A DNA stretch of 33,226 nt from Thomasclavelia sp. (GTDB lineage Bacteria > Bacillota_I > Bacilli_A > Erysipelotrichales > Coprobacillaceae), in contig JAQVWN010000020.1 in NCBI GenBank assembly GCA_028749475.1, positions 1 through 33,226 of the forward strand, in the 5' to 3' direction. Both the position numbers and the translations under genes were made by a program. This document shows, one piece after another, positions 1,252 to 8,192 of this stretch. The notes below the pieces were generated by a model. That model did not search any database. It had not been told where the DNA came from and was given only the letters and a program-made list of their open reading frames with translations. Numbering within the stretch: the first letter of the stretch is position 1; the number at the start of each line of letters is the position of its first letter.

Positions 1252-1566
1252 TTACTGTACATCTTCTTTTTTTAATTCTTCTGGAATTTCACTTAATATT
1301 CTCTTCAACTCCGTATCTAATTGTTTAATATATTCCTTTGCAATTTCAATATACAAATTCTTTCTATAACCATCAGTAATCTTTAACTCTAATTCAAACG
1401 GCTCCTCAATAGCATATTTTATTATTTCATAGAATAATTTTCTTAATTGCGATTGATCTTTATCATTAAAATCAATCGATACAGAAGATCCTTCTCCCAA
1501 ATGAAACTCAAGTATATCTTTCTTCTCTACCTCTTTCAATTCAACTTCGACTTTTTTATTTTCCAT
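1252..1566 (-). CDS. Small acidic protein encoded with the PHP-ATPase; function unknown
   Basis: This 104-residue protein is rich in Glu, Lys and Ile, with no membrane segment, signal peptide or cysteine. Charged helices at about 1-20 and 65-104 flank a middle that reads like beta strands (LEFHLGEGSSVSIDFND). I do not recognise a family. Its ATG lies inside the last codons of the upstream PHP-ATPase (11-base overlap), with a modest AAAGGGG site about 8 bases before it. The two are therefore almost certainly translationally coupled and co-regulated. Such small coupled partners are often regulators, adaptors or immunity-like factors of the larger enzyme, but that is inference. The gene is intact and ends in TAA. 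Confidence 0.7.
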   Translation of the reverse strand: MENKKVEVELKEVEKKDILEFHLGEGSSVSIDFNDKDQSQLRKLFYEIIKYAIEEPFELELKITDGYRKNLYIEIAKEYIKQLDTELKRILSEIPEELKKEDVQ

Positions 1567-3697
1567 ATATTTCGCCCCTTTCTATAAATGCGTATTCTCC
1601 ACCTTCTAATGTTGACACACTTTTTTCTGTCCAGTCACAAATATCATTCTTATCCTCTGGATTTATTAATGTATTTGTAAATGGATTTCCTATATATGTC
1701 GTATATTCATCATTTCCTTTATATTCTCGATACACAGATAATAATGGTAATGTCCTTACAGCTATATTTGCATCATGTGTAGAGATTATTACAGTCTTAT
1801 TCAACTTAGACAACTCTATTAATCTAGGAACAATAATATCATTAATATATTTATGGCCAACACTCAATTCTGGCTCATCAAGGATAAAAATATTTTTAGT
1901 ATCATCTACAATTGCATTATTCAATAGCAACATAGATTGCTCTCCATTAGATGGTTTATAAGATTCTCCATTTTCTCTAATGATTCTGCCTTTTACACAT
2001 ACATAATCTCTTAATGATTTTATCCCCTTACTATCCATTAAATAATTCAATTTTGAGATGTATCCTCCTTTATCTTCTGTAAAAGATAAAGAATTAATTT
2101 TCTGTAAATAATCAATAGAATCTCGCAGATCCGTTATATTAAAAGAAGCTGATTTTTTTAAAATTAAATCTGTTGATTCGTTAGGGTTTATATAAATATC
2201 TTTTTCTAAATAAATGCTACCCTTTTCCTGTAGTTCACCAATTACTCTTTTTTTCGTCTTAAATGGTGTATTAATTTCTTTTACAATAGAAAAAGATAAA
2301 TCATACAAGTTTTTGCAATTTAAATATGTATCTAGTAACCCCGTAGAAGACGGTAATTGGCTTACACCCGATTTAGTCTGACATAGTATCTTCATCTTAT
2401 CAATGGTTGTTTTTTCTAGTAAAACACTTCTATATTCTATCCACTTTGTTAGTGCGATATTCTTAGATTTTTTTACCATTTTGTTCAATAAAACATTTAA
2501 AGTTAATAAATCTGATTTATTCAAATATTCATCAATATGATTTACGTCATCAATTTTTGATTTTAAAGATAACAATTCTTTATAATCATCAATATAATCT
2601 TGATATGAATTTTCACTGACAGTTTCATTAAACACAGCATTTCTAAAGCCAAATTGCTCGCTAAGTTTGTTTACATCTTTAGTATTATACCAATCAATAT
2701 ATTTAGTTATTGGTGTAACAGATACATCTTTCCACTCATTAATCTTTATAAATTCTTCTTCGGAATCATTTATATTTAAAAATTCAAAGTCTTCTAATTC
2801 ATTTGTAATTTTAACCATTTTATTATATTCTGTTTCTTTTGTTTGCCCATCATAATATGAGACATCAGCATTTCCATATGAGTCAAAATGATTTTTTATT
2901 TTTGATAAAAATGTACTTTTTCCTGTACCTTTTCCCCCAAAGAATATGTTTATGTCATTATATATTGGTATTTCAATTTTACAATCTTCAAATGGTTCGA
3001 TATAAATCTTCTCATTTATTTTTTGATTAATAAATGTATCTAGTATTTCAGGATCTTTTTTTACCAACAAATTAAAATGATCATAATCTTTAATTGGCAT
3101 TTTTAAATCTGGTAAACAACATTCTGAATATTTATCCCAATCTTGTATATCTGAACCAATAAACGAGGTTAGGTTGTGTGCGTATAGAATTCCTGCACTT
3201 CTTAATTGTGGAACTTCTAAAAATAAAGTCTTCTCATTACCTAATTGACTTGTCATTATATCTAAATCTTTTTGATTCAAACTAGGCTTTTTCCATCCAT
3301 AGTGTGCTATAACAGTCACATCCATTTCTTCAAAACAACTGACCATGTCATATATACTTATTTTAAAATCATCACAAGATTGTTCACCAATTATACTTTG
3401 ACATCTTGTATCAAACTCTTTTTCATATGATGGATTGGATATAACTATACAATGCCCTTCACTTGTCTCACCTTTCACATCAAATTCTATACCTGGCCAA
3501 ACTTGAATTTTCTTTTCCAATCCTTTATTCTTAAACTCCTTATATTGTCTATAATCAAAATGGTTATGATTAGTTATTGCAACAATTGATACTTGAGAAT
3601 TCTCTAATTCAGAAATAAATTTACCACATGTTACATTACGAGTAATTGCCTCTCCCTCTTTAGTTTTTTTTGTATGACAATGCAAGTCTATTTTCAT
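1556..3697 (-). CDS. PHP phosphoesterase domain fused to ABC/SMC-type ATPase
   Basis: The protein has 713 residues. The N-terminal PHP domain (about 1-200) shows DLHCHT (His6, His8), TNHNH (42-46), PGIEF (Glu71), GHC (His82), IAHYG (His132) and SDIQD (Asp183). These are metal ligands in the order expected for PHP phosphoesterases, except that the last His of the usual SDxH is Gln. The ATPase follows: Walker A GGKGTGKS (254-261), a long helical insert (about 290-560), a signature-like SNGEQS (583-588), Walker B IFILDEPE (603-610), an H-loop STHD (640-642) and a C-terminal LEGGEYAF. This is the OLD/RecF/SMC-like class seen in many genome-island and defence proteins; it resembles PHP-ATPases of the TrlF type. 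A strong AGGAGGA site precedes ATG 3697. It overlaps the 104-residue gene downstream. Likely substrates are nucleic acid or nucleotide phosphates. A defence role is inferred from architecture and from its place beside a decayed recombinase. Confidence 0.8.
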   Translation of the reverse strand: MKIDLHCHTKKTKEGEAITRNVTCGKFISELENSQVSIVAITNHNHFDYRQYKEFKNKGLEKKIQVWPGIEFDVKGETSEGHCIVISNPSYEKEFDTRCQSIIGEQSCDDFKISIYDMVSCFEEMDVTVIAHYGWKKPSLNQKDLDIMTSQLGNEKTLFLEVPQLRSAGILYAHNLTSFIGSDIQDWDKYSECCLPDLKMPIKDYDHFNLLVKKDPEILDTFINQKINEKIYIEPFEDCKIEIPIYNDINIFFGGKGTGKSTFLSKIKNHFDSYGNADVSYYDGQTKETEYNKMVKITNELEDFEFLNINDSEEEFIKINEWKDVSVTPITKYIDWYNTKDVNKLSEQFGFRNAVFNETVSENSYQDYIDDYKELLSLKSKIDDVNHIDEYLNKSDLLTLNVLLNKMVKKSKNIALTKWIEYRSVLLEKTTIDKMKILCQTKSGVSQLPSSTGLLDTYLNCKNLYDLSFSIVKEINTPFKTKKRVIGELQEKGSIYLEKDIYINPNESTDLILKKSASFNITDLRDSIDYLQKINSLSFTEDKGGYISKLNYLMDSKGIKSLRDYVCVKGRIIRENGESYKPSNGEQSMLLLNNAIVDDTKNIFILDEPELSVGHKYINDIIVPRLIELSKLNKTVIISTHDANIAVRTLPLLSVYREYKGNDEYTTYIGNPFTNTLINPEDKNDICDWTEKSVSTLEGGEYAFIERGEIYGK

Positions 3698-3812: not shown

Positions 3813-5019
3813 TTACTTATTTATTTTGATATAACCATCTTTAGTTATATCAATCTTACCTATGTGTTTATTAATCACATACACAATTTTATTATTGTAG
3901 AAATATTTCTTATCTCTTATGCAATTAAAGTTAACATTAAATTGTTCCATAATTGTTTGTAAAAGTATTTCTTCCTTAATGGCCCTTGAACCTGGATATT
4001 TAGTTTTTCCTCCATCACTCGCTTTACTACATTTCCATTCAATTGATCTTATTGTCTTGTCTCTGTTCATATAGATTTCTCTTCTATATGTGCTTCCACA
4101 TTCACCACAGAAGACTTTTCTTGATAATGCCGTTTCCATTTTTATTTTTCTTACCCCATAAGTTAATGGTTTACTTCCATATTGTTGAACTGCGTTAAAT
4201 TGTTCCTTAGTTATAAAATAGCTTGGTGATTGTCTTCAGCGTAATACTGATCAAGAACATAATCATTTTTGTATCTTTTTTTATTTACTAGACTTTTACT
4301 GTAACTTTTCGGTCCCACACTATCCCCGATGTATTTAAAATTTGTAAGCATATCCCTAATTCGACCATAACTCCAGTCAACAATTCCTGATTTATTGAGG
4401 TAGTTGCGCTTAACAAATTCATTTTCAATATCCATTTCAAAATATCCTTTAAGATATAAGCTATATGCTTCTCTTACTACCATAGCTTCATAATCGATTA
4501 CTGTAATTTCACTTCTACTACTTCTATAACCATATGATTTTGTCATATATATTCTTACCTTTCAAACCCTCTTTTGTAGCCCCATTTAATGGATTAACTT
4601 TTTGCTTCTGACTCGTATTGGTACATAATAGCTTGTATTTCATAATACATTCTCTTTTCTTTTATATCAGTTAACAACCTGCCATTTTCATTTATTAATT
4701 CATCTTTTTCTTCTGTCAATATCACAAACTTTATTAACTCTAAAGAATCTCTACATATTCTTGATAATGATTTACAAAATAATATCAATTTTTTCCCTTT
4801 TTATAAGATCAGCAACTTTCAAATATCTTGGTCTATTTTCCTTTTGTAACCCACTTTTTATATCGTTGAAAACTCCAATAAATTCATATTCATAATTATT
4901 TTGTAATAAATCTAGATAGTATCCAATTTGTAATTGGATACTTGATTTTTATTCATCTAATTTGCTACTTACTCTACAATATGCTGCAACTCTCTTTTTT
5001 CCTTATTTGTTTTCTCCAT
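3813..5019 (-). pseudogene. Large serine recombinase, decayed by several frameshifts and stops
   Basis: All domains of a large serine recombinase are present in order but broken. From ATG 5019 the frame is lost after MEKTNKEKR. In another frame the catalytic domain reads RVAAYCRVSSKLDE (active-site Ser in RVS), hits TAA, and continues IQLQIGYYLDLLQNNYEYEF to IDIIL before a second stop. CKSLSRICRDSLE (4594-4788) continues it in a new frame. The recombinase domain (4211-4546; GYRSSRSEITVIDYEAMVVR...WSYGRIRDMLTNFKYIGD) breaks at NHQAI. The zinc-ribbon part (FCGECGSTYRR...WKCSK) runs to TAA at 3813. I count at least five lesions. Such enzymes integrate phages and conjugative elements, so this marks an old integrated element. 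It cannot make an active protein. Confidence 0.85.
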
Positions 5020-5108: not shown

Positions 5109-5455
5109 TGGTGGAGGTGAGGGGAATCGAACCCCTGTCCAAAAACAATCTCTCCAAAGCATCTACAGTTTATCTTATTGAATGGATTTAACCTAGTTAC
5201 AATCAATAAGCAATTTTACGCTAGGCGATTCTGTAAAGTTTTAGTGTTAGTCATCCAGACTCTAACTAACCTTATCCTATGAGTATGTTACCTAGTTACT
5301 AGTTATAGGCACCCTAGTAGTAGGCACTTTCAAGTCTATGTCGACTATGCGAAAGAATAGTTTGTTCTGTTTCCAGATATTTGTTTGTGAGTTTAACGTA
5401 CTCCTACGACTGCAGCTAAGGTCAGACATGTCCCTGTCGAAGCCAAGACACCCCC
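5109..5455 (-). ncRNA. ssrA: tmRNA (ssrA)
   Basis: This 347-nt RNA rescues stalled ribosomes and tags their products for degradation. The 5' end GGGGGTGTCTTGGCTTCGAC and the 3' end CACCTCCACCA pair as a 7-bp alanine-type acceptor with a G.U at position 3, the alanyl-tRNA synthetase identity element. The T arm (GGGGTTCGATTCCCC) and CCA are encoded. The likely tag frame is 5392-5345: THKQISGNRTNYSFA then TAG, with the hydrophobic Phe-Ala end typical of proteolysis tags; the exact resume codon is inferred. The 5' end starts one base after the smpB stop codon, so it is probably processed out of the rnr-smpB-ssrA transcript or driven by a promoter within smpB. Confidence 0.95.
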
Positions 5456-5915: not shown

Positions 5916-8192
5916 TTATCTTTTATGTTTGTGGTATTTAGATTTATGTTTATATTTATCTTTACCACCATTGCGTCTTTTATAATCATCATGATGATGT
6001 TTATTAAAGTCATAACTTTCTTTCCTTGAATGATTCTTGGAAGAATGTCGATTGTTTAATTTGATTTCTTTACCAGGTTTACGATTAGATTTAATGCCAA
6101 CTACTTCAAAGTCAACTGATCTATTAGCTTTACTAGCTGAAAGGACTCTTACTTTAATTTTATCAGACATCTTAAATCTTTTACCAGTTCTTTGACCTCT
6201 TAAAGTAAGAGTCTTTTCATCAAAGAAATAGTAATCATCAGTTAAATCTTCCATTCGAACTAAACCTTCAATAGTATTAGGTAGTTCAACAAAGATTCCA
6301 AAATTAGTAACTGAAGAAATAATACCTTCATACTCATCACCAATATGTTTTTCCATATATTCAGCAATCTTCATATCATCAACTGCTCGTTCAATGTCAA
6401 TTGCTCTTCGTTCACAAGTTGATGTTTGCATGGCAATTTCTGGCATTATTTTAGCATAATGTTTGATAGTAGTATTATCAATATGCTTTTCAAATAAATA
6501 TTTTCTAATTAGACGATGAACCATTAAATCAGGATAACGTCTAATTGGACTTGTAAAGTGTGTATAGAACTCATCAGCTAAACCAAAGTGACCTAAACAT
6601 TCAGCATCATAACGAGCTTTTTGCATACATCTAAGTAGTAAAGTTGAAATAATTGTATGTTCTGGTCTTCCTTTACTAGCATCAATTATGGCACATACTT
6701 CTTTAGGATGAATATCATCTAAAGAACCTTTAATAGTATAACCAAAACTTCGAGCTATTACTGAGAATTGTTGAAGTTTCTTTTCTTTTGGATATTCATG
6801 AACACGGTAGATAAATGGTAAATCTAACCATTTAAAGTGTTCAGCAATAGTTTCATTAGCTAAAAGCATAAACTCTTCAATAATATGATCAGATGCTCCT
6901 CTTTCTCTTACCTTAACATCTATTGGTTTTCCTTTATCATCAACTATTACTTTAGCTTCTTCAACATCAAAATCAATAGCTCCTCTTCGAGCTTTTTTCT
7001 TAGCTAAGATATTAGCTAATTCTTGCATTAAAAAGAATAAATCTAAAACATGAGAATACTTTGTTTGCATAACGTTATCGCCTTTTAAAATGGCGTTAAC
7101 GTTACTGTAAGTCATTCTTTCCGTTGAATTAATAATTGTTGGTAAGATGTCATGATTGACGACTACTCCTTGTTCATCAACTTCCATCATACAAGAGATA
7201 GCAAATCGATCAACATGAGGATTTAAAGAACATATCCCGTTAGATAACTTATGTGGTAACATCGGAATAACTCTATCTACTAAATAAATCGATGTTGATC
7301 TATTTAAAGCTTCTTTGTCTAAGACACTACCTTCTTTAACATAATAACTAACATCAGCAATATGGACTCCTAACTTATAATGACCATTATCCATTCTAGT
7401 AAGTGATATTCCATCATCTAAGTCTTTAGCATCATCACCATCAATAGTTACAACTGTTTCACTACGCATATCAACCCGATTTTTAAAATCTGACTCATCA
7501 ACTGTATCAGCGATACCTTCAATATAATCATATATTTCCTTTTCAAAATCGATTGGTGCTTGGTATTCATGAACTACCGATGCAATGTCTACACCAGGAT
7601 CTAATTTATGTCCAATGATTGTTTCGATATCACCTTTAATAAAGGGTTTATATGATTTAATAGCGACAACTACTTTATGACCAGGCATCGCTCCATGAGC
7701 GTGTGCCTTATCAACAACAATCATTTTCTTGAATTTGGGATCATCAGGAATTACTAATAAATCTCTTTTCCCTTTAGTAACTTCCCCAACTATCTTTGTT
7801 TGTCCTCGTTTAATTACTCTAACTATTGTACCTTCATCATTTTTTCCTTCTTGTTTATTTAAAAGTTCAACTAAGACTTCATCAGAGTTGAAAGCATCTT
7901 TTAAATTCCGATTGGAAATAAAGACATCATTTTCTCTACCTTCCACAGACACAAATCCAAATCCTTTTTTATTGATTGATAAAGTACCAACCACCATATT
8001 ATTTTGACTTGGTAAGAAATAATGATTATGTTTACTTCGAACTATAATTCCTTCTGATTCTAAAGAATTTAGTTCTTTAACTAAACCGACAAAACCACCT
8101 GATTTAGTAATATTTAATTGTTTAGCAATACCATCAACTGTTCGATCAGTTAACTCTTCATTCTTTAATAATTCTATTATCCTCTGGTCCAC
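5916..8192 (-). CDS. rnr: Ribonuclease R (3'-5' exoribonuclease)
   Basis: The protein has 758 residues. Order: winged-helix-like N-terminus (about 1-60), cold-shock domains (about 67-200), RNB catalytic domain (about 240-570), S1 domain (about 615-690; GDEYEGIISSVTNFGIFVEL) and a basic tail rich in His, Lys and Arg (about 700-758). The RNB active site is visible as TIDGDDAKDLDDGI (249-262), which binds the metal ions, and LPHKLSNGICSLNP follows at 313-326. It degrades structured RNA processively and works with tmRNA-SmpB in clearing faulty mRNA, matching its neighbours. The start is GTG at 8192, chosen for a near-perfect GGGAGGTGAT site at 8196-8205. The His-rich tail probably binds RNA. Confidence 0.96.
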   Translation of the reverse strand: MDQRIIELLKNEELTDRTVDGIAKQLNITKSGGFVGLVKELNSLESEGIIVRSKHNHYFLPSQNNMVVGTLSINKKGFGFVSVEGRENDVFISNRNLKDAFNSDEVLVELLNKQEGKNDEGTIVRVIKRGQTKIVGEVTKGKRDLLVIPDDPKFKKMIVVDKAHAHGAMPGHKVVVAIKSYKPFIKGDIETIIGHKLDPGVDIASVVHEYQAPIDFEKEIYDYIEGIADTVDESDFKNRVDMRSETVVTIDGDDAKDLDDGISLTRMDNGHYKLGVHIADVSYYVKEGSVLDKEALNRSTSIYLVDRVIPMLPHKLSNGICSLNPHVDRFAISCMMEVDEQGVVVNHDILPTIINSTERMTYSNVNAILKGDNVMQTKYSHVLDLFFLMQELANILAKKKARRGAIDFDVEEAKVIVDDKGKPIDVKVRERGASDHIIEEFMLLANETIAEHFKWLDLPFIYRVHEYPKEKKLQQFSVIARSFGYTIKGSLDDIHPKEVCAIIDASKGRPEHTIISTLLLRCMQKARYDAECLGHFGLADEFYTHFTSPIRRYPDLMVHRLIRKYLFEKHIDNTTIKHYAKIMPEIAMQTSTCERRAIDIERAVDDMKIAEYMEKHIGDEYEGIISSVTNFGIFVELPNTIEGLVRMEDLTDDYYFFDEKTLTLRGQRTGKRFKMSDKIKVRVLSASKANRSVDFEVVGIKSNRKPGKEIKLNNRHSSKNHSRKESYDFNKHHHDDYKRRNGGKDKYKHKSKYHKHKR

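Follow-up and report, generated by a model that had tools for sequence, protein, structure and literature searches.

A contig from a Thomasclavelia draft genome carries two genes, one encoding a PHP domain fused to an ABC/SMC-type ATPase (P0001) and the other a small acidic partner (P0002), that probably serve in anti-phage defense. Of the explanations considered below, we lean toward a mobile two-gene anti-phage module in which an ATP-gated PHP nuclease would be paired with a co-translated regulator. The window, meaning the whole stretch of DNA analyzed here (33,226 nucleotides), is one entire contig of a 43-contig assembly, and the module is present as a single copy in the genome.

The PHP-ATPase and its predicted metal site

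A preliminary description of this DNA had reported an intact 713-residue reading frame without naming its strand. The frame is indeed intact and lies on the minus strand (Table 1), while the plus strand in this region is full of stops. It is not a chance reading frame, since full-length homologs with 33 to 43% identity are conserved in unrelated phyla. These include proteins from Photobacterium (on a plasmid), Thalassotalea, Agarivorans, and Desulfobacterales, as well as two more viral contigs and one prophage. More distant homologs are found in mollicutes, whose genes were read with TGA as Trp.

Table 1. Positions in the window of the module, its predicted domains, and neighboring features
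Feature	Position	Strand	Basis
Small acidic partner, 104 aa (P0002), no known family	1252..1566	minus	
Dual-coding overlap of P0001 end and P0002 start	1564..1582	minus	
PHP-ABC/SMC-type ATPase, 713 aa (P0001)	1556..3697	minus	
ABC head C-lobe, residues 567-713	1559..1999	minus	
Helical insertion (mostly), coiled-coil-like, residues 301-566, with low-confidence parts	2000..2797	minus	model
ABC head N-lobe with Walker A (K260), residues 227-300	2798..3019	minus	
PHP domain, residues 1-225	3023..3697	minus	conservation, model, fold match to RNase AM and BAD_1165
Large serine recombinase remnant, zinc ribbon PF13408	3813..4139	minus	
Large serine recombinase remnant, PF07508 (the genome's only PF07508 match)	4211..4546	minus	
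Resolvase-domain remnant of the same recombinase, stop-ridden, ILFCKSLSRICRDSLELIKFV	4594..4900	minus	by eye
tmRNA gene ssrA	5109..5455	minus	

All of the ATPase motifs named at the outset were found, namely, Walker A (GGKGTGKS), SNGEQS, Walker B (FILDEP), the H-loop (STHDAN), and a C-terminal LEGG. The C-lobe holds the signature S583xG585E, Walker B residues D607 and E608, the H-loop residue H641, and a C-terminal LEGG...ERG.IYG. Moreover, K260, S583, G585, D607, and H641 are invariant across 22 aligned relatives, TrlF included. Profile searches with both domains recovered PHP and ABC/SMC-like ATPase families; the Pfam matches to these parts were weak and below gathering cut-offs, the best NCBIfam match was TrlF, and the best PADLOC match was PDC-M49A. 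Among proteins of the PDB, sequence matches of the ATPase were to AriA of PARIS (8v45 and 8v46) and to retron PtuA. Sequence searches also gave weak matches to RecF. An AlphaFold2 model built from nine sequences is of moderate quality (mean pLDDT of 74.9 and pTM of 0.60), being mostly good in the PHP region and poor in stretches within residues 330 to 360 and 436 to 450. Its fold matches are BAD_1165, RNase AM, and the PHP amidohydrolase 2yb1 on the PHP side and SMC3, Rad50, PtuA, AriA, and RecF-like heads on the ABC side.

The fold matches to Rad50, SMC3, and RecF-like heads, together with the RecF sequence matches and a helical insertion that separates the two ABC lobes, would also suit a one-chain Rad50-Mre11 (SbcCD)-like machine. 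Here, the ABC head would clamp invading DNA and the PHP domain would cut it, with no suicide, and the small protein would be a clamp or loading subunit. We consider this rather unlikely: a Rad50 coiled coil would call for longer helices than P0001 has, AriA and PtuA, the best PDB sequence relatives, guard separate effectors, and the nearest fold match of the PHP domain among enzymes of known activity is RNase AM, an exoribonuclease.

P0001 has every one of the six PHP ligands listed in the preliminary description (H6, H8, E71, H82, H132, and D183), along with a further conserved ligand-like residue missing from that list, H44. None of the 22 aligned relatives, TrlF among them, departs from H6, H8, H44, E71, or D183. 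H82 is kept in every nonmollicute member of this alignment. The window branch keeps H132, as do PDC-M49 and TrlF if the alignment is shifted by one residue. Mollicute members of the alignment lack H82 (7 of 7) and, with one exception, H132 (6 of 7), and the PHP site is therefore reduced at least there. In these relatives (L023 and L030 to L035), the first-site ligands stay while the second-metal ligands H82 and H132 are gone, which may represent a natural partial inactivation or a change of chemistry.

After the trinuclear enzyme YcdX, we take H6, H8, E71, and D183, along with H82 and H132, to be the ligands of sites 1 and 2; of the third YcdX-type site, presumably H44 alone is present in P0001, with Q185 and no equivalent of H15. 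Of the three canonical PHP sites, whose completeness had been questioned, two are predicted to be kept and the third to be incomplete. A Gln does stand in place of the last PHP His, at position 185. This position is occupied by Q, R, H, T, K, or L across relatives, and so Gln185 is not special to P0001; because sites 1 and 2 are predicted to be complete, it would not kill the metal site.

These same substitutions, namely, the loss of H82 and H132 in mollicutes and the replacement of the last canonical His in P0001, might be read as signs that the PHP domain is a structural relic and that the ATPase and partner are the functional parts, for example, by sequestering another effector. A relic would not be expected to keep five PHP residues unchanged in 22 proteins, TrlF among them, and we judge this reading improbable.

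The embedded partner gene

The partner gene begins inside the ATPase gene. The codon for Tyr711, TAT, together with the G that opens the following codon, forms the partner's ATG, and the region of R707 just before it is a purine-rich, Shine-Dalgarno-like stretch. The conserved ERG.IYG codons thus double as the Shine-Dalgarno-like GAAAGGGG and the partner ATG. This arrangement is general, as evidenced by 20 readable loci that span mollicutes to Gammaproteobacteria: in all 20, the partner ATG is inside the ATPase gene in the +1 phase, 7 to 25 nucleotides ahead of the end of the ATPase stop codon. It falls on the Tyr711 codon in 18 loci and one codon later in the other two. Profile searches with the partner recover it at the equivalent place in other loci, and its conservation, together with the overlap shared by 20 of 20 loci, upholds the view of a two-gene module.

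A start on the Tyr codon is also found in the true PDC-M49 loci L017, L043, and L044, as well as in the alphaproteobacterial loci L047 and L048, which group with them. The window-type and PDC-M49 partner families have no sequence similarity (hhalign probability of 0.2). The shared start position in both branches suggests that the operon was inherited from one ancestor. Listeria TrlF keeps the R...Y motif, yet it has no overlapping partner, indicating that the motif also matters at the protein level.

The partner is acidic throughout, with a pI of 4.1 to 5.5 in all 20 loci. A model of P0002 (pLDDT of 86.5) has a predicted beta-beta-beta-alpha-beta-alpha topology, and a fold search of the PDB and BFVD with it gave no significant match (best E values of 0.02 and 0.022). 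The weak best matches are RNase-H-like folds, which we treat as a lead only. A sequence search of the PDB with P0002 likewise returned no recognizable family.

Tightly overlapping gene pairs on plasmids and prophages, with an acidic partner, are also what a toxin-antitoxin or addiction cassette would look like. In such a cassette, the PHP-ATPase would be toxic, the partner would neutralize it, plasmids and prophages would be stabilized, and phage defense would be incidental. HicB antitoxins are said to have an RNase-H-like fold, and the predicted topology of the partner resembles a partial fold of this kind, albeit in a match that is not significant. Nevertheless, the antitoxin gene usually comes first in type II pairs, whereas the partner gene is second here. 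Considering also the many defense genes among the neighbors and the absence of a significant fold match for the partner, we hold an addiction cassette to be unlikely.

Relatives, known systems, and genomic surroundings

By sequence comparison, we place the module as a divergent sister of PDC-M49 and a relative of TrlF within one PHP-ATPase superfamily, where it forms a separate, well-supported branch outside the strict membership of either family. The nearest relative of P0001 is the prophage copy L040 (43% identity), with which it groups in the tree (98/97), while PDC-M49 forms its own clade (100/100) apart from the window branch. The architecture had been put forward as that of a little-described system; given its place beside PADLOC's PDC-M49 and its kinship with the TrlF family, it is not an undescribed one.

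The likeness to PDC-M49 extends to an identical gene order (an N-terminal PHP plus ABC ATPase of ~675 aa, followed by a partner of ~95 aa), a partner ATG that uses the homologous Tyr codon in the same phase as in the window branch, and a defense and mobile context. However, the PDC-M49A profile scores 99.7 to 121 bits on window-branch proteins versus 662 to 803 bits on true members, and its matches to P0001 come in split stretches (E values of 1.6e-29 and 2.7e-17, with 101 and 60 bits). Strict membership was rejected, as P0002 has no match to PDC-M49B even at an E value of ≤1. Our search of the literature on PDC-M49- and TrlF-type systems in defense found no PDC-M49 paper and no functional test. 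PDC systems are in general unvalidated (PMC12988326).

Membership in TrlF (NF045780) was rejected too, with 100.9 bits for P0001 and 34 to 83 bits for its relatives against a cut-off of 350. P0001 shares with TrlF a PHP domain and an ATPase, the motifs ITNHN, PG(I/V)E, and GSD, the Walker motifs, and a C-terminal EGG...R...Y. TrlF is longer, however (944 positions in the profile and 867 aa in the Listeria protein), and the Listeria locus has no overlapping small partner. Because TrlF is a named relative, one might view P0001 as a nucleic-acid enzyme for stress or housekeeping, comparable to TrlF of the Photorhabdus temperature-restriction locus. The trlF operon of Photorhabdus restricts growth at 36°C, but none of the mutations in that study was located in trlF, and its authors question whether trlF plays a part (PMC7554251). 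Given also that P0001 scores far under the TrlF cut-off, we regard such an enzyme as very improbable. A housekeeping role is rejected because the distribution is patchy, with recognizable pieces of the gene in only 3 of 43 genomes of the host's family; of these three, one is an evident remnant and one is cut off at a contig end.

Other known systems resemble the module in part. The ABC ATPase of PARIS, AriA, has weak similarity by sequence and fold, and PARIS couples an ATPase sensor to a nuclease effector, as we propose for the window module. In contrast, the PARIS effector is a separate Toprim protein, while that of the window would be the fused PHP domain, and the second gene of the window module encodes a small acidic protein without a recognizable fold. 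Neither P0001 nor P0002 matches Toprim (AriB), excluding PARIS membership, and P0001, with a PHP domain and no Toprim, does not belong to OLD or Gabija. Septu and retron I-A have a PtuA-type ATPase that is similar by sequence and fold; unlike them, the window module has no HNH gene and no retron, and its nuclease-like domain is a fused PHP. P0002 is not an HNH protein (PtuB), and so Septu membership was also rejected. Lastly, RNase AM (YciV/TrpH) and the stand-alone PHP enzymes share the PHP fold and most metal ligands, but unlike P0001 they have no ATPase; the role of RNase AM is housekeeping RNA processing.

In the Thomasclavelia contig, the island is situated beyond the 3' end of ssrA, with smpB and the RNase R gene following ssrA further upstream of the module. 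The region past ssrA is wholly different in all six relatives whose contigs are long enough, and it is thus variable ground. A decayed recombinase had been noticed beside the module, and domain searches agree, with PF07508 and PF13408 in separate fragments. Att-like repeats flanking the island were not seen beyond short AT-rich, chance-like ones, and a promoter scan found 35 candidates versus 34 expected by chance. On the plus strand, positions 1 to 100, at the edge of the contig, look by eye like the final part of an IS3-like transposase (YNNKRPACALNYKTPVQYRIEQG), and the assembly probably broke here for that reason. Positions 205 to 636 of this strand hold a TetR-type regulator fragment with a weak TetR_C_8 match, which precedes a perfect 17-bp inverted repeat at 630 to 671.

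Most homologous loci are beside defense genes, on plasmids, or inside prophages. By a raw count based on HMM or record annotation, 7 of 15 window-type loci adjoin recognized defense genes: TIR (L011); type I R-M, PDC-S11, and SoFic (L012); BsuBI/PstI (type II) R-M (L014); an MmeI-like IIG enzyme, FRG, PDC-S26, and a helicase with GIY-YIG (L026); the PrrC-like ATPase PDC-S06 and DUF2130 (L029); the Schlafen group 3 helicase PDC-S41 (L031); and a type III methylase (L032). No defense or mobile neighbor was seen at L013, L030, L033, L034, L035, or L037, which we counted against defense. Bona fide PDC-M49 kin, which are distant, adjoin type I R-M and AbiD; for instance, a true PDC-M49 accompanies type I R-M on contig IMGVR_UViG_3300033565_000054 (L043 and L059). 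This neighborhood survey revealed no consistent core metabolic context, and the defense or nucleic-acid surveillance role proposed in the preliminary description is the best-supported reading of these surroundings.

The L040 prophage, which has terminase genes, delimits the module. Its segment 5289 to 7793 holds just the ATPase and partner genes and is absent from the close relative L061; homology between the two ends at 5288 and restarts at 7794, with flanks that align at 85 to 87%. Among relatives sharing the L040 terminase (177 in the collection, of which 80 were kept), the slot is filled in some cases by a GmrSD-type gene plus PDC-S54, by PDC-S45, or by PDC-M30/M41. The slot appears to be a variable cargo hotspot of related prophages, flanked by a ParB-methylase gene on one side and the small terminase gene on the other (upstream of the latter in L061, L062, L064, L068, L070, L073, L074, and L076), and by eye it also holds an aminoglycoside-phosphotransferase-like gene and a heavy-metal P-type ATPase set. 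The L043/L059 and L040 terminases are 99% identical, yet each of the two prophages has its own member of the PHP-ATPase superfamily, the window type in L040 and a true PDC-M49 in the other.

Broken copies of the window branch occur on Gram-positive plasmids. On a conjugative Enterococcus faecium plasmid (L015, 4583 to 6722), the copy is split over several frames and its partner is still open. The host's family also includes a genome with a decayed copy (L036, 8711 to 9100), beside which are two genes that, by eye, are cytosine methylase-like. Among phage genome records, the window protein matched two Listeria records, with similarity to the PHP part alone, and the Agarivorans relative matched none.

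Proposed mechanism and significance

From these observations we infer nuclease activity, ATP gating, a regulator role for the partner, and an anti-phage effect. The specific mechanism is tentative, and the reduced PHP site of the mollicute members, the moderate quality of the full-length model, and the unrecognized fold of the partner weigh against the favored reading. The large protein would be effector and sensor in one chain, with a dimer (or higher oligomer) of its SMC/AriA/PtuA-like ABC ATPase restraining the N-terminal PHP metallo-phosphoesterase domains. Upon infection, the ATPase would switch these domains on, and they would cut nucleic acid, with RNA or tRNA, or DNA ends, as the more likely targets; cleavage would then halt either the replication of the phage or the cell itself. 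The acidic partner, whose translation would be tightly coupled to that of the large protein, may be a dedicated regulator of it, either an inhibitor that is released upon infection or a required activator. There is precedent in PARIS, where AriA holds and then releases a nuclease (PMC11455837). The module would work like a PARIS or Septu system whose ATPase and effector form one chain.

A bolder proposal, which we find doubtful as it stands, is that the module is a mechanistically new defense type, a single-chain ATP-gated PHP ribonuclease with a co-translated acidic partner of new fold. Sensor, switch, and effector would then share one polypeptide, and the guard would be made within its C-terminal codons.

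If the favored reading of a mobile anti-phage module is true, the locus offers a compact, self-contained two-gene unit for assaying the untested PDC-M49/TrlF superfamily of PHP-ATPases, and the L040 prophage cargo gives this unit natural boundaries. PHP nucleases would join the effectors that are run by AriA/PtuA-like ATPases. Moreover, the shared position of the start codon would tie the window-branch partners to those of PDC-M49 where sequence comparison fails.
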